Virus record (IMG/VR): IMGVR_UViG_3300037507_003457
Location: 1-51,746 of that record
From: a virus
DNA length: 51,746 bases
Strand: one strand, 5' to 3'
Shown here: piece after piece, positions 9,238 through 44,871 of the stretch
How the letters are laid out: each line of letters begins with the position of its first letter
Numbering within the stretch: the first letter of the stretch is position 1
Notes under the pieces: generated by a model
Told to the model about the DNA's origin: nothing
What the model saw: the letters and a program-made list of their open reading frames with translations, nothing else
Databases searched by the model: none
Made by a program: the position numbers and the translations under genes

Positions 9238-9600
9238 CTACCCTCCAACGTAAAGTCTAGCGCACTCGTTTATTTTTTCTTTGTTCAGCTTAGCCGAGAC
9301 CCTTTTTACAAAACTGACATTGCAGCCCAGATTTTTAGAGACCGTGTTGCAGCTGTGTCCCGCATTCAACTGAGCGATAACTTCCTTACCCAGGAATGTT
9401 GAAAGTGCCCGTTGTTCAATACGTTTACGAATTTCAGCGTACTGACCGGCAGAAGCAAAGCTTTTTATAATCTGCTGAACCCGTTGCTTCGAAATATTGA
9501 ATTTTTTACCTATTTCAGCGTAGCTCTTCCCCTCCATCAAATAATCGTAAATATCCGCAAAACGCTGTTTAGCTTCCGGCGAAGGACAAAGACGACCCAT
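9238..9600 (-). CDS. Helix-turn-helix DNA-binding regulator
   Basis: 120 aa. Residues about 24-48 (KSYAEIGKKFNISKQRVQQI) form a sigma-70 region 4-like helix-turn-helix. A second helical segment (CNTVSKNLGCNVSFVKRVSAKL) resembles another HTH near residues 80-105. It lies next to the divergent non-coding region with repeated AACG(T/C)(G/A)AATTTCG elements, so it is a reasonable candidate to bind there and control the plus-strand cluster. Target not shown. Confidence 0.7.
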   Translation of the reverse strand: MGRLCPSPEAKQRFADIYDYLMEGKSYAEIGKKFNISKQRVQQIIKSFASAGQYAEIRKRIEQRALSTFLGKEVIAQLNAGHSCNTVSKNLGCNVSFVKRVSAKLNKEKINECARLYVGG

Positions 9601-9624: not shown

Positions 9625-9789
9625 TTACCCAGCATCTACTTTGGTGTCAACCTCACGATGCTGATAAAACTCTTCAGCTATACGCCAAGCTGGGATATTT
9701 AACTTCATAGCTCTGCGGCGACACTCCGCCCAGAACTCCTCATCAGACAGGTCTATAGCTGCACTTGGTTTTAAGCTTGCTGTAGGCAT
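9625..9789 (-). CDS. Small hypothetical protein (54 aa)
   Basis: ATG at 9789, TAA at 9625-9627. It encodes a helix-rich protein (IDLSDEEFWAECRRRAMKLN, then IPAWRIAEEFYQHREV). AGGGATGGG precedes the start at ribosome-binding distance. The hydrophobic/charged periodicity looks like a real small protein, possibly DNA-binding. No family recognised. It is the minus-strand gene closest to the divergent regulatory region. Confidence 0.55.
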   Translation of the reverse strand: MPTASLKPSAAIDLSDEEFWAECRRRAMKLNIPAWRIAEEFYQHREVDTKVDAG

Positions 9790-10174
9790 GACCCATCCCT
9801 AGAAGATGTTGTTCGTATATTACCAGATATTCCAGAAAAAGCGTAGTTTTGTACTCTTTGCCCTATAGTCGACAGTACGCGGGTTGCCACGGCTGCAAAA
9901 ACCAAAACACCGTGTTTCAAAACTATCTCCAGAAGCCCGTTTACTTAACGTGAATTTCGTTTTAAAACGTGCTTAGTTATATATTTAAAATTATATTATA
10001 AGTAATATGCGCTAACGCAAATTTCGCTGCAGTTAAATACTGTAAAACTTGCCGGTCAGGCGAAATTTACGTTAAGTAATCTAATGATTGAGGAGAAAAT
10101 CAAAAAAGGGAGCACGAACGGCTAAGCTACCTACATGGTGCGCTGTGTGCGTTCCGTGCGTTGTGTGAGCTCAA
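9790..10174 (+). promoter_or_regulatory. Divergent intergenic region; candidate origin/operator
   Basis: 385 bases without a convincing gene between the leftward and rightward transcription units. It contains a 19-nt inverted repeat, an additional direct copy of its core, an AT-rich stretch (about 9975-10010), a TTGCCCTATAGT element at 9858-9869 resembling promoter motifs elsewhere in the window, a small CAGT-5-ACTG hairpin at 10030-10042 and a GT-rich run just before the ATG at 10175. Very short ORFs at 10084-10125 and 10135-10218 could be leader peptides but are not supported. Confidence 0.6.
9941..10079. repeat. Inverted repeat with iteron-like core
   Basis: The left arm 9941-9959 (TTACTTAACGTGAATTTCG) and the right arm 10061-10079, read on the minus strand, match at 18 of 19 positions. 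A third copy of the core, AACGCAAATTTCGC, lies in direct orientation at 10014-10027. The consensus is AACG(T/C)(G/A)AATTTCG(T/C). The spacing and AT-rich centre fit a replication origin or a looped operator. Confidence 0.75.
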
Positions 10175-10861
10175 ATGAGTACATCCGTATTCCTAACCCA
10201 GTACCTCGGGATCCTTGAACCCGTCCTTTCAGAGCCTCCAGGAGGCATTCCGGACGAAACACGAGAGCTAGGCAACTTCGAGTTGGCTGTCTACGGGCAG
10301 ACCGGTGTCCTCCTCTGCCAGTGCGGGCGCCAGGACCCGATAGCCCTTCGGATGCGCGACGTGGCCCACGCTGCTCCGATTCGGGGCCTGATGGCCTGTC
10401 CTGCCTGCGTTGCCGAATCCCGCACCAACCCTGGTCGTTCGAAGCTGATCCAGGCTTGGTTCCGGCGCCGCAAACTGGCGATAAACCCTGATCAGCACTT
10501 ATATCTTCCTGAGTCCTTGCACCGCCTGGTCGACGACGAGGAGATCATGCGCCCGCGTCGCTACATATATAAGGTGTTTTTTGATTGCGACTTGACTACG
10601 GAAGATAAAGTTCTGTGTTCGTGCGGGGATCAATCCTGTTTAAATCCTTATCACATGATGATCGGTAAAAGTCCTGCGCGTAAAATGACACCAGAAATGC
10701 TGGAGGCTGTACAAGCATGGCTAAAGAACGGCAAAACGACCAAATCGGTGGTGGAATTGCTCAAAATAAAATTTCAAAAGTCGTTTTCTATTCGGACTAT
10801 ACAATTGCTAAAAAAAGAGTTTCAGCAATCAGGCTTTACGAAGAGCTCGTTCAGCTGTTAG
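10175..10861 (+). CDS. Zinc/HNH-like DNA-binding protein with C-terminal HTH
   Basis: 228 aa. It has three Cys-rich segments: LLCQCGRQ (about 47-54), ACPACVAE (about 73-80) and CSCGDQSCLNPYHM (about 147-160). The last is the C-x4-C-x-NPxH signature of HNH-type zinc folds. The C-terminus (KTTKSVVELLKIKFQKSFSI...) looks like an HTH. The usual HNH catalytic DH/EH pair is not evident, so it may bind rather than cut DNA. It is the first gene of the plus-strand cluster. A run of seven A near its 3' end may allow a -1 frameshift into the next frame. Confidence 0.55.
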   Translation: MSTSVFLTQYLGILEPVLSEPPGGIPDETRELGNFELAVYGQTGVLLCQCGRQDPIALRMRDVAHAAPIRGLMACPACVAESRTNPGRSKLIQAWFRRRKLAINPDQHLYLPESLHRLVDDEEIMRPRRYIYKVFFDCDLTTEDKVLCSCGDQSCLNPYHMMIGKSPARKMTPEMLEAVQAWLKNGKTTKSVVELLKIKFQKSFSIRTIQLLKKEFQQSGFTKSSFSC

Positions 10862-11049
10862 TATTTCGCCAACCTCTTTCCACGAAAGAGATACGCAGTG
10901 AGTTGTATTCACCTAAGGACAACTTACTGAGGGCTTTAAAATCCCTAGTACAACTTGATTTGGTACGAAAAATCTCTTTCGAAACGCATACGCTGTATGT
11001 GCTAAATGGAGAGTACAATTCGTTAATTAAAACTACACTTGGATTATGA
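10717..11049 (+). CDS. Winged-helix-like protein, possibly made by -1 frameshift
   Basis: Residues about 36-105 (VSAIRLYEELVQLLVFRQPL, STKEIRSELYSPKDNLLRAL, then KSLVQLDLVRKISFETHTLY) have the pattern of a winged-helix domain. The first 35 residues from the ATG at 10717 overlap the upstream gene by 145 nt and look unlike a folded domain. GGAGG lies about 12 nt before this ATG. No other start is present in frame between 10717 and the domain. A -1 shift at A-AAA-AAA (10810-10816) would instead fuse this domain to the upstream protein. The stop overlaps the next start (ATGA). Confidence 0.6.
   Translation: MAKERQNDQIGGGIAQNKISKVVFYSDYTIAKKRVSAIRLYEELVQLLVFRQPLSTKEIRSELYSPKDNLLRALKSLVQLDLVRKISFETHTLYVLNGEYNSLIKTTLGL
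10808..10817 (+). other. Candidate -1 slippery site (CTA AAA AAA G)
   Basis: In the frame of the 10175 gene the codons are CTA AAA AAA GAG. Slipping back one base on A-AAA-AAA gives AGA GTT TCA, which enters exactly at the start of the winged-helix region. The unshifted frame stops 14 codons later. No strong downstream stem-loop is obvious. Transcriptional slippage on the A7 run is an alternative. Confidence 0.4.
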
Positions 11050-11477
11050 ACACAGAACTCGATAAGAAGCCCTTTCGGTGGGATGACGAATACGTTATTG
11101 AAAATCTTCCTACATGGATTTACACAGATAATGATCAACCACGCTCGATAAACGAGTGCAGGGCCAAGATCTCCTCTGTCGAATACACAATCGAAGACAT
11201 CGACTTACAGATTCAGATACGAGATCTGGAATTAAAAACAGGTAACAGTCGTCATCAGTCCTCTTTCGATTTCGATAAGTGGAAAACTCAAGCGTTGCGA
11301 GCTAGGCAGACACATCTGTATCTTCTGAACGCTTATAAATACTGGTTGATCCTTAACGAAAAAGAACCGGATCCTAAGTATTTAGATAAAAAACTGAATC
11401 AGATCATTAAACTGCTAATAGAGGAGCCTGCTGATTTTGAACAACAACTCGCAGCACTCTACGATTTGCCTGCGTAA
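11046..11477 (+). CDS. Hypothetical helical protein in the plus-strand cluster
   Basis: 143 aa, highly charged. Residues about 35-75 (INECRAKISSVEYTIEDIDL, QIQIRDLELK) predict a coiled coil, followed by helices (YLLNAYKYWLILNE). It starts with ATGA overlapping the preceding stop and its 3' end overlaps the next gene by 41 nt, so it is part of a tightly coupled operon. No family recognised. Confidence 0.65.
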   Translation: MNTELDKKPFRWDDEYVIENLPTWIYTDNDQPRSINECRAKISSVEYTIEDIDLQIQIRDLELKTGNSRHQSSFDFDKWKTQALRARQTHLYLLNAYKYWLILNEKEPDPKYLDKKLNQIIKLLIEEPADFEQQLAALYDLPA

Positions 11478-11886
11478 CAGGAATCACATAAAAACCGATA
11501 CGGTTTGCGAGGAGTGCCTGAAAACAATAAATAATTTTGCCTGCGAACCACAGCTGCAGGACGTTGAGCCCGAACTCCGGGCTCTTTTTACGCAGCTAAC
11601 TGCTCAAAACCGAGACCTATATACGTGTTGGAAAAGCTCTTACAAAACAATTACGGTTCTTGGTAAACGCCTGAATATAGAGAACGTCTACTACAACTTT
11701 TATAAGGGTGACATCGGAAACTTTGCTTTAAAACGAATTTGCGGAACAATTGGGTGTGTAAATCCAGCTCACCACAAATCACGCTTTGAGGCTGAAACAA
11801 TCAAAAAGAAAGTGCAAAGTGGATTTAACAGAAAATTAAAAAACATGAGTGAGCTATCCACAGCGGAATGGCTGCGCCAACCTTAG
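11437..11886 (+). CDS. HNH-like zinc protein
   Basis: 149 aa from a TTG start at 11437 preceded by GAGGAG. It contains CEECLKTINNFAC (a CxxC knuckle) and CGTIGCVNPAH (about residues 105-115), the C-x4-C-x-NPxH signature also present in the 10175 gene. The pattern suggests an HNH/zinc fold, but without a clear catalytic histidine pair it may be only a DNA-binding relative. The 41-nt overlap with the previous gene, out of frame, supports co-expression. Confidence 0.55.
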   Translation: MNNNSQHSTICLRNRNHIKTDTVCEECLKTINNFACEPQLQDVEPELRALFTQLTAQNRDLYTCWKSSYKTITVLGKRLNIENVYYNFYKGDIGNFALKRICGTIGCVNPAHHKSRFEAETIKKKVQSGFNRKLKNMSELSTAEWLRQP

Positions 11887-12025
11887 ACTTCTGTCACTGG
11901 CTTTCGTAAGAAAGGCCGAAAGTCAGTATATTGGGGTACGCTCGGTTTTAGCCTTTTCCCGAGTGTGGCAACTGAACTCCATTGCCCGGCGCCGGGGGAT
12001 GGGGCAGCCCCAAATTACTTAAATT
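11887..12025 (+). other. Hairpin-rich leader between plus-strand genes
   Basis: 139 bases with no ORF and four strong hairpins or palindromes in tandem: 11897-11926 (10-bp stem CTGGCTTTCG/CGAAAGTCAG, one G-U), 11938-11945 with 11959-11966 (8 bp, one G-U), a perfect 12-nt palindrome CCCGGCGCCGGG at 11985-11996, and GGGGCAGCCCC at 12001-12011. No T-run follows, so a simple intrinsic terminator is unlikely. It could be a structured 5' leader or small RNA for the gene at 12026. Confidence 0.5.
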
Positions 12026-12349
12026 ATGGAAGTTGAATCCCGAGAACTCCTGAGTCTGCTGCAAAGCATCGATGTATCGCTGCAGATTTTGGCGCAAAAC
12101 AAAACAAAAGCAGCAAAAACTGTATTTGTGTCAAAGAAAGTGATCGCCTCTCGCTTAGGCGTGCCTCCTGTAACAATCGACAAGCTGATCTACCAAGGAA
12201 TTACATCAGGTGGTAAATCCGGCCTTGTTGAACTGCGTCATTACTGTAAGCTAGATCCGACAGAACAAAATACGTCTAACTTTCTGTTCGATCCCGTGCA
12301 AATAACCACGGACGCTTGGGCTTCTTTCACTAACTACGACAATGTTTAA
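12026..12349 (+). CDS. HTH-containing small protein
   Basis: 107 aa. An N-terminal helix (LLSLLQSIDVSLQILAQNK) is followed by KKVIASRLGVPPVTIDKLIYQGI (about 40-62), which has the spacing of an excisionase/MerR-type helix-turn-helix, and SGLVELRHY as a possible wing. Likely a small transcription factor. It is preceded by the hairpin-rich leader and overlaps the next gene by 8 nt. Confidence 0.55.
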   Translation: MEVESRELLSLLQSIDVSLQILAQNKTKAAKTVFVSKKVIASRLGVPPVTIDKLIYQGITSGGKSGLVELRHYCKLDPTEQNTSNFLFDPVQITTDAWASFTNYDNV

Positions 12350-12758
12350 TTCAAACAAAACAAAACAAGCATTTAAAAACGTCTTTGGATTCTCAGAAAT
12401 TCAAAATCGCATCGCTTTAAACACGGTCAAGATGATCGTGGGCGATATGGTGACTTTGTACTCAGAGTTCAAGAAAAATGAAGGGTCCGGAGCTCTGTTT
12501 TTTATCCCTTCGAATCCGAAGTGTTCACGCTATGTGACAATCTCGGACATCCAAAAAGACATCATTTTGTCTGAGGAGTTGATGGACAAACCTCTGACAG
12601 AATTTCTACGCAAATTGGGAAATATCGTCGAAAAACACGAAGACGAAGAGAAACCCATCGTGGTGCTGGTGACAGAGAGCGGTATGAGTATTCATATCGT
12701 TAATCCTGACGAAGTTTCTGACAACATCACGGATTATTTGACCGATGCCGCTAGCTAG
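12342..12758 (+). CDS. Hypothetical protein
   Basis: 138 aa, mixed alpha/beta (VKMIVGDMVTLYSEFKKN, KPIVVLVTESGMSIHIVNPD). No catalytic motif or family recognised. It overlaps the preceding gene by 8 nt and the following Dam-like gene by 14 nt, so it is clearly inside the operon. Confidence 0.6.
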   Translation: MFNSNKTKQAFKNVFGFSEIQNRIALNTVKMIVGDMVTLYSEFKKNEGSGALFFIPSNPKCSRYVTISDIQKDIILSEELMDKPLTEFLRKLGNIVEKHEDEEKPIVVLVTESGMSIHIVNPDEVSDNITDYLTDAAS

Positions 12759-13323
12759 TGTCGATTTTGTTTCCCCGCCAGAAGTTATTGCAACTACGAC
12801 GGCATTTTTTGACGGGGAAATAGCACTCGATCCGGCATCAAGTGTCAGTGCCAATAAGTTAGTCTGTGCATCTAAATTTTTTACGTACGAAGACAGCGGA
12901 TTAAATCAAATTTGGCGAGCTAAAAACGTTTATTTGTTTCCGCCACGGGATTTTTTATTAGGTAGCGAGCAACCGGCGGACGCCTACTTGTTTAGAAAGC
13001 GGAGGCGCTTTCAAAAGTCTGCACAGCGGGTGTGGCTAGAGGAATGCAAACGAAAGTATCTAAGACAAGAGTTCGACGAAGCGATCGTTTTTTTAACTTC
13101 TACAGAAGTGGCTTTGTTGACGACTCAAAAACTTGAAATTGACTTTCCGCTGTGCATACTTAGAGACAGACCAAATTTGTATATAGATACACCTGAGTTA
13201 AATAAACTTGATAACACAAGATGCCTTGGATTTGTTTATTACTTTCCCAGCTCTATAAACACTGAGAAACGTATATACGACTTTAGTAACCTCTATAGTA
13301 ACCTTGGTCGGGTGTTTGTTTGA
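12745..13323 (+). CDS. Dam-like N6-adenine methyltransferase family protein, catalytic motif altered
   Basis: 192 aa. The order of motifs matches phage Dam-type methylases: FDGEIALDPASSVSANKLV (DPAS at 29-32), FFTYEDSGLNQIW (about 45-57), NVYLFPPRDF (61-70), then a conserved C-terminal strand/helix region ending FSNLYSNLGRV. Active members have NPPY or DPPY at the catalytic loop; here it is F-P-P-R (65-68). The protein is therefore either inactive or uses a changed motif. Its 3' end overlaps the convergent gene at 13283 by 41 nt. Confidence 0.65.
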   Translation: MPLASVDFVSPPEVIATTTAFFDGEIALDPASSVSANKLVCASKFFTYEDSGLNQIWRAKNVYLFPPRDFLLGSEQPADAYLFRKRRRFQKSAQRVWLEECKRKYLRQEFDEAIVFLTSTEVALLTTQKLEIDFPLCILRDRPNLYIDTPELNKLDNTRCLGFVYYFPSSINTEKRIYDFSNLYSNLGRVFV

Positions 13324-16493: not shown

Positions 16494-17033
16494 ATGGTTT
16501 ACTCAACTTCGAGCCCTGAAGATATTTCGGGGATGCTCCAACGGCAACCTGTTGCAGTAGAAACAATCGAAGTTGAAACGCAAGAAAGGGTCACAGTGGA
16601 GGGACTAGCTTCTCTCCTGGTGACCCTTTCATCTGCTCTAACACATTTGTACATACAATCACATTTAATTCATTTGAACGTTGAAGGGCCTTTATTTTTG
16701 CCCGTACACGAATTTTTAAAAGGGCAGTACGAATCCCACGTCGATCAGCTTGATAAAACCGCCGAGTTTGTTCGCACTCTCGACGTGTTCATGCCGATGT
16801 GCGAAAAAGGACTTTTAGGAGCGTGCAAGCCTTTTAAGCATGTTAAGAGCTACGAATGTCGCGATATGCTAATGACGTATTTAAAAAACTTAGAAGATAT
16901 TGGTATGCAGGCTAAGGACGTCGGTGAGTACGCGAAAGAACTAAAAGCTCCCGATGTTGAAAATTATATGGCCGAACTCGTGGGCGAAATGTTCAAAGCT
17001 GCTTGGTTTATCAAGAGCACTCTTCGGGGTTAA
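16494..17033 (+). CDS. dps: Dps-family ferritin-like protein
   Basis: 179 aa, close to the usual Dps length. SHLIHLNVEGPLFLPVHEF (56-74) followed by SHVDQLDKTAEFV (81-93) matches the Dps core. The four ferroxidase ligands known from E. coli Dps (H51, H63, D78, E82) fall at H60, H72, D87 and E91 with identical spacing; the usual Trp after the first His is Leu61. Dps proteins oxidise and store iron, protect DNA from peroxide and can coat DNA as 12-mers. In a phage this may protect the genome during infection or affect host iron. Its stop overlaps the convergent structural gene by 4 nt. Confidence 0.8.
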   Translation: MVYSTSSPEDISGMLQRQPVAVETIEVETQERVTVEGLASLLVTLSSALTHLYIQSHLIHLNVEGPLFLPVHEFLKGQYESHVDQLDKTAEFVRTLDVFMPMCEKGLLGACKPFKHVKSYECRDMLMTYLKNLEDIGMQAKDVGEYAKELKAPDVENYMAELVGEMFKAAWFIKSTLRG

Positions 17034-22056: not shown

Positions 22057-22491
22057 TTATTCGACATAAACGTGATCGCCTTCTAAAACTTCGTCCCAGT
22101 TGATGTTTTTAATGGACTTCAACTGATCAAGTTTGGTAAAGCGCTCACCCGGTTGAGCTTGTTGTAGCTCCTTAATTTCAGTAGCGGTCTTCATTCCTAC
22201 GCCTTTAAGAACCTGCGTTAAAAGCTGCGGTGTGGCGCTATTGATGTTGATGCGGGTGAATGCTTGCACCTCCGGCTTAACTACCTGCCGACCACGACGT
22301 TGCTTAACGTGTTTTTCGCTCTCCTTGGTTTCTGTAACTTTTTCATCAATCTGGTTCTTGTGGGCAAAGAAAACTTTTCCAGTCGTTAAAGAACGCACCA
22401 TGAAGTATTCTCCTTCATCGTGTGAGCTGACAACCTCTACTTTTACACCGTTGGGGGTGTAAGTGAATTCTTTGGCCTGTGTAGCAGTCAT
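22057..22491 (-). CDS. Helix-hairpin-helix (ComEA-like) protein
   Basis: 144 aa. The N-terminal part is a small beta domain (FTYTPNGVKVEVVSSHDEGE). The C-terminus RININSATPQLLTQVLKGVG (about 80-99), then MKTATEIKEL...FTKLDQLKSI, is the ComEA/HhH1 non-specific DNA-binding fold. A DNA-binding structural or packaging accessory role is plausible. Confidence 0.75.
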   Translation of the reverse strand: MTATQAKEFTYTPNGVKVEVVSSHDEGEYFMVRSLTTGKVFFAHKNQIDEKVTETKESEKHVKQRRGRQVVKPEVQAFTRININSATPQLLTQVLKGVGMKTATEIKELQQAQPGERFTKLDQLKSIKNINWDEVLEGDHVYVE

Positions 22492-22549: not shown

Positions 22550-23074
22550 ATGCCTGCTTTTAAATTCGCGGGAAACTTGCGTGGACTATTAAGGGCTACT
22601 CCTGGTGTCGGTGACATATTAAATACAGTTTTGGAAGCAGCTGATCAAATTCAAGCTGGAGTTCCTATACAGAGAGCTGTAACTAGAGCAATTCCTGTTG
22701 GTGCAGTTGGATTAGCTACCAATATTTATGATCCGTTGGGAGTTACTAATATGGCACCTACGGTAGTTAGATTAGCTGGAGATGTTGCTAAGCAATTAGA
22801 TTTCGCAAAAAAAGCGCGATTACAAAGCCCTCCAATAACTTCAGGGAGAGATCCGAGAATTGTGAATGCTGCAGAAAATATTATGCTTCAAATGTGGCAG
22901 GATCCCCAAGAAGTTGAAAAAGCAGCAAAAGTTCTAGATAAATTTAACAGCGAAGCAGCAGCGCGTTATATTGTCGATAAAACTGATCCGTTAACAAAAG
23001 AAGGACAATTTTCCGCCGACCCTACTGAACGATTACAACAATTACAAGAATTTTTGTCCAGAACAAATAGATAA
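22550..23074 (+). CDS. Hypothetical protein, isolated plus-strand gene
   Basis: 174 aa. The N-terminal half is hydrophobic and Gly/Ala/Pro-rich (LLRATPGVGDILNTVLEAAD, then AVTRAIPVGAVGLATNIYDP); the C-terminal half is helical and charged. TTTACA-like and TTAAAAT sequences precede it, but no clear promoter. It ends just before a two-way terminator. No homologue recognised. Confidence 0.55.
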   Translation: MPAFKFAGNLRGLLRATPGVGDILNTVLEAADQIQAGVPIQRAVTRAIPVGAVGLATNIYDPLGVTNMAPTVVRLAGDVAKQLDFAKKARLQSPPITSGRDPRIVNAAENIMLQMWQDPQEVEKAAKVLDKFNSEAAARYIVDKTDPLTKEGQFSADPTERLQQLQEFLSRTNR

Positions 23075-44711: not shown

Positions 44712-44794
44712 TGCCTCCGGCGGGATTCGAACCCGCAAGCTTTTTAGGGCGGCGCATTTTAAGTGCGCTATGTCTTCCATTCCATCACAGAGGC
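44712..44794 (-). tRNA. tRNA-Leu (UAA)
   Basis: 83 nt, class II. Acceptor GCCTCTG/CGGAGGC (one G-U pair), D-arm region ATGGAATGGAAGACAT, anticodon stem GCGCA/TGCGC around CTTAAAA (anticodon TAA), a moderately long variable region, T-arm GCGGG-TTCGAAT-CCCGC, discriminator A. No encoded CCA. Phage-borne tRNAs supplement host codon use. Confidence 0.95.
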
Positions 44795-44798
44795 GATG

Positions 44799-44871
44799 TG
44801 CGCGTCGTGAGGATCGAACTCACCTTCGTCCGATTATGAGTCGGAAGCAGTCACCAGATTGCTAGACGCGC
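44799..44871 (-). tRNA. tRNA with CAU anticodon (Met or Ile2)
   Basis: 73 nt. Perfect acceptor GCGCGTC/GACGCGC, D-arm GCA...TGC, anticodon stem TCCGA/TCGGA with loop CTCATAA (anticodon CAT), T-arm GTGAG-TTCGATC-CTCAC, discriminator A, no CCA. Whether it is elongator Met or lysidine-type Ile2 cannot be told by eye. It overlaps the end of the upstream zinc-protein gene on the same strand by 38 nt. Confidence 0.93.

Follow-up and report, generated by a model that had tools for sequence, protein, structure and literature searches.

A conserved inverted-repeat element with promoter-like sites beside an HTH gene in uncultured phages related to Synechococcus phage S-EIV1

Introduction

In the middle promoters of bacteriophage T4, the MotA box overlaps the -35 region and sigma is appropriated by MotA and AsiA (PMC2988021). 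The T4 origins oriF and oriG have a minimal length of about 100 bp, within which a middle promoter is followed downstream by an A+T-rich DUE (PMC3016281). In P2-like phages, promoters that face each other at a distance of 40-60 bp occur (PMC7498355). These are the closest described systems for the intergenic element that we analyse here.

The element is part of a 51.7-kb virus record (51,746 nucleotides), which was analysed as a whole and is hereafter called the window. Its structural genes are syntenic with those of Synechococcus phage S-EIV1 (KJ410740), the closest isolate, with identities of about 52% in the large terminase and 67% in the presumed major capsid protein. Because of this synteny and these identities, we regard the window as an uncultured S-EIV1-related phage, and its host is presumably a cyanobacterium. 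To our knowledge, gene regulation and the start of replication have not been described for the S-EIV1-related phages.

Results

The scans for the neighbouring genes of the element returned 26 and 10 viral loci on partly overlapping contigs, and 17 HTH-bearing loci were taken as representatives. The lineages are deeply divergent: in a tree built from the product of the gene starting at 10175, inner branches reach about 1 change per column. No relatives were confirmed in genome_contigs. The window also has two adjacent tRNA genes, Leu(TAA) and Met(CAT), at 44712-44871, and a ferritin-like (Dps-type) gene at 16494-17033 with about 51% identity to its S-EIV1 counterpart.

The first-pass annotation had reported a 19-nt inverted repeat in the divergent region of the window, with a third copy of its core in the spacer. 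We found that the repeat is real and deeply conserved. The arms lie exactly at 9941-9959 and 10061-10079, are complementary at 18 of 19 positions and enclose a 101-nt spacer, and the third core copy is present at 10013-10026, where it pairs with the right arm as well (15 nt, 93%). When 19-nt inverted repeats with no more than one mismatch and a spacer of at most 150 were counted, the real window contained exactly one and 12 second-order Markov shuffles of the window contained none. A search for the core elsewhere in the genome, which had been recommended, returned three exact copies of the 13-nt core in the record, all within the element. Searches for similar DNA in plasmids and for similar genes in isolated phages found none. 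The bare 7-mer CTTAACG was not enriched genome-wide, and an apparent excess of the CTTAACG pattern over a reversed-pattern control was compositional.

The left half-site CTTAACGTGAATTTCG (9944-9959, plus strand) is situated inside the arm 9941-9959 and has the same position and orientation in all 17 HTH-bearing loci. The third site GCTAACGCAAATTTCG occupies 10011-10026 on the plus strand, and the right half-site CTTAACGTAAATTTCG (10061-10076, minus strand) is inside the arm 10061-10079. The functional unit appears to be longer than the repeat, because the conserved unit begins with CTTAACG (at 9944-9959 and 10061-10076), and after every copy comes a -10-like hexamer. A structured-RNA stem was considered and rejected: there was no Rfam match at the element, and the right arms often retain CTTAACG but not the remaining complementarity, a loss that suits protein sites.

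Inverted copies of CTTAACGnnAnTTkC flank an AT-rich core in the same intergenic region in 17 of the 17 HTH-encoding representative loci. In the window, a conserved 54-aa gene (9628-9789, minus strand) lies between the element and the HTH gene (9238-9600, minus strand), and on the other side starts the first gene of the rightward operon (10175-10861, plus strand), which is Cys-rich and has a CLNPYHM motif. The left site is 25-28 nt from the AT core in the HTH-bearing loci, and the left-right distance ranges from 113 to 150 across loci with no helical phase between the arms. Despite this variable spacing, in 12 of 17 loci exactly 46 nt separate the right site from a conserved TGCTATnCT-type sequence. 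The distance is 44 in the window, in which the counterpart of the relatives' rightward TGCTATnCT (extended -10) promoter is degenerate (GCTAAGCTACCTA, 10121-10133, plus strand). A candidate leftward extended -10 promoter, TGGTAATAT (9817-9825, minus strand), was recognized by eye in the aligned relatives upstream of the small gene and the HTH gene. Unlike in the window, these searches found in S-EIV1 neither a site above the threshold nor a homologue of the HTH gene or the 10175 gene.

Two further sequence patterns were seen near the sites. A conserved CGTGGnA motif occurs on the leftward strand to the left of the left site, at a distance of about 50-56 nt (L024-L057), and in the right-arm flank of L030, L036, L037, L039 and L056 the -10-like hexamer is replaced by GTCTC/GTCGC words repeated at 10-11 nt.

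Inverted arms around an AT core could also be read as an attachment or recombination site, and in one relative, G004, a tyrosine integrase (G004:35618-36073) is found about 2 kb from the element. This is true of that relative only; no integrase was found in the other eight contigs searched, and we consider this function most improbable.

Position 33 is 17 nt after the AATTKC half of a site, and TA at this position was taken as the -10 element. It was found in 11 of 16 left sites, 7 of 16 right sites and all three third sites; in five right arms, TA is missing from positions 32-35. In the window, the candidate -10 elements are TATATA for the left unit (9978-9983, plus strand), with a spacer of 19 here and of 17 in 11 of the 16 loci counted, TAAAAC for the third site (10043-10048, plus strand; spacer 17) and TACAGT for the right site (10039-10044, minus strand; spacer 17), whose TA is common to the third-site -10 on the opposite strand. 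Because only positions up to 16 went into the site matrix, lone matches elsewhere provide an independent test of the spacing. Among strong lone sites (>15 bits, outside the training set), TA was present at position 33 in 12 of 21 (57%), compared to about 5% at other positions, and about 6 of 14 classes had it when orthologous lone sites were merged by hand. Several of the lone sites are antisense to genes. The sites thus combine, with exceptions, a conserved box and a fixed distance from a -10 element, like a MotA-box-like promoter class. A consensus sigma-70 scan gave one match, no more than in shuffles, and no TTGACA-like -35 was seen at the sites. In a search for a T7-type RNA polymerase there was no match, and the positive controls were equally silent.

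Sites between divergent genes and units facing each other might also be the operators of a repressor, in which case the HTH protein would repress the divergent early promoters and its own gene in a face-to-face switch of the P2/186 type. However, the constant distance from site to -10 and the lack of a TTGACA-like -35 suit positive control, and with no integrase in eight of nine contigs a lysogeny switch is unlikely for most of these phages. We regard repression as an unlikely role of the sites.

The HTH gene encodes a 120-aa protein with two HTHs, the first of which is like sigma-70 region 4, and this protein is the candidate binder of the sites. Pfam Sigma70_r4 matched 17 of 17 HTH proteins (best 6.5e-13), as did generic HTH families, and region 2, expected beside region 4 in a sigma factor, had no match in the 120 aa. 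In the AlphaFold model (mean pLDDT 81, pTM 0.53), a long helix connects two HTH units. A comparison with solved structures gave weak matches, to sigma region 4 for the first HTH and to LuxR-type HTHs for the second, and a Foldseek structure search likewise gave weak matches only (E above 0.1). The two HTHs of one chain would fit the bipartite site, in which CTTAAC and AATTKC are about one turn apart.

All 17 loci with the HTH gene also have the CTTAACG sites, and five loci (L044-L048) have neither; all five retain both flanking genes, namely the 54-aa gene and the 10175 homologue. Three of these HTH-less loci (L044, L047 and L048) were read closely; they have no HTH gene beside the 54-aa gene, and the CTTAACG sites are missing. 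A profile search of the available sequence of three of the HTH-less contigs found no HTH homologue elsewhere. The co-occurrence amounts to one evolutionary contrast and not five, because it corresponds to a single change on the tree (support 100/99). L048, which is without the HTH gene, has three sites (L048:4846-4987) whose orientations are the same but whose upstream half is different (TTTTRCYnYM-AAATTTCG). The AAATTTCG half is common with the HTH-bearing loci, and -10-like hexamers follow at a spacer of 16. Because L048 keeps three sites without the HTH gene, some other factor must act there, and the swapped upstream half suggests a change of regulator. It appears from this pattern that the architecture outlives the HTH gene, whereas the CTTAACG half is lost along with it. 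The earlier proposal of an operator bound by the adjacent HTH regulator has therefore gained indirect support, from the joint presence of sites and HTH gene, counted as one contrast, and from the promoter-element-like layout of each site.

The AT core (9976-10008), whose sequence is conserved, is a candidate unwinding element. The AT-rich stretch had been pointed out in the first-pass annotation, and we found it to be the least stable part of the window at lengths of 30, 45 and 60 bp. By nearest-neighbour stability over 30 bp, the core was the least stable stretch in 10 of 12 contigs and ranked second and eleventh in the remaining two; over longer windows (60-100 bp) it was often not the first. 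The core is likewise the least stable part of the 12-kb HTH-less locus L048, but not of L044 or L047. The suggestion of an unwinding element is thus strengthened by its rank in 10 of 12 contigs, but the iteron origin to which it had been attached found no support in the form proposed. Instead of an iteron array, with several direct repeats in phase, there are two inverted sites and at most one more, their spacing varies without helical phase as described above, and lone copies recur elsewhere in related contigs. Cumulative GC skew, which had been put forward as a check, had no extremum at the element in eight contigs, although these contigs are incomplete and the skew also follows gene orientation. 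Repeated sites do stand beside an easily melted stretch, and yet an iteron-type origin with the HTH protein as its initiator is very unlikely.

A transcript-primed origin like T4 oriF is a tentative possibility. The HTH-dependent promoter would fire into the AT core, and an R-loop would prime leading-strand synthesis. As far as layout is concerned, a phage promoter with an A+T-rich DUE just downstream is what we found, the low stability of the core in most contigs and in the HTH-less L048 locus is consistent with it, and relatives encode DNA polymerase A. On the other hand, the skew has no extremum at the element in the eight contigs, similar lone promoter units occur elsewhere without a demonstrated AT core, and the L044 and L047 loci are without such a core. 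An origin of this type is compatible with a promoter controlled by the HTH protein. That a single element serves both to initiate a class of phage transcription and to prime phage DNA replication, with a promoter driven by the sigma-70-region-4-like two-HTH protein firing into the most meltable DNA of the genome, seems rather doubtful to us.

The lone site S2, CTTAACGTGTTTTTCG (22303-22318, plus strand), is accompanied by TAACTT at 22335-22340. It sits on the strand opposite to a structural gene and reads towards an isolated reverse-strand gene (22550-23074, plus strand of the window), the presence of which matches that of S2. All six contigs with both the reverse-strand gene and the HTH gene have S2; it is absent from six relatives without the reverse-strand gene, from S-EIV1, and from G009, which has a candidate reverse-strand gene and no HTH gene. 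By the tree, the pattern reflects at least two concordant changes. The coding linker in which S2 lies is variable and Lys/Glu-rich, and because such a linker contributes part of the S2 bases, S2 is taken as support and not as proof. The reverse-strand gene itself, which stands alone in the structural cluster, has homologues in G002, G005, G007, G010 and G014 and a candidate one in G009, and a Pfam scan of it was negative. Another recurrent lone site was noticed in the replication module (G001:775, G002:77156, G003:50103 and G008:50524), where it is antisense and beside a short FDVFAKKGK-type gene.

Discussion

We suggest that the element is probably a promoter/operator control region through which the HTH protein governs a phage-specific regulon. 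The same layout is kept in distant relatives, and this is therefore probably the place where a phage protein turns genes on. From the observed sequence, conservation, spacing and co-occurrence of the sites, we infer binding, promoter activity and activation over repression. We favour activation since the site stands in for a recognisable -35 and stays at a constant distance from the -10.

Each CTTAACGnnAnTTkC copy would be the upstream part of a phage-specific promoter, in which the bipartite site places AATTKC at the -35 position and is followed, after about 17 nt, by a TAnnnT-type -10. The HTH protein is the likely binder, and its effect would most likely be positive, in replacement of the usual -35 contact of the host RNA polymerase. 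Two units would read right into the 10175-13323 operon and one left into the 54-aa and HTH genes, so that they are partly face to face, and the units would lie between apparent divergent host-type promoters. Lone sites, S2 among them, would be further targets of the HTH protein.

This arrangement is similar to that of the T4 middle promoters (PMC2988021) in that a phage-specific box covers the -35 region, a host-type -10 lies downstream and a small phage DNA-binding protein is the candidate activator. It differs in the sequence and length of the box by inspection (16 nt, bipartite), and the putative activator here is a two-HTH sigma4-like protein, unlike MotA. As in T4 oriF and oriG (PMC3016281), a phage-specific promoter and the A+T-rich unwinding stretch behind it fit into about 100 bp; unlike those origins, the element has three units, one of them reversed, and no skew signal, and it is a putative origin by its layout. 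Facing promoter-like units between divergent genes are also a feature of the P2/186 early promoters (PMC7498355), from which the element differs in its regulator, its sites and probably the life style of the phages, most relatives being without an integrase.

S-EIV1-related phages occur in many of the contigs searched here. With a site, a spacing, a named candidate regulator and S2 as a second target, these phages may have a small regulon that is directly testable, and the AT core offers a concrete place to seek the origin.
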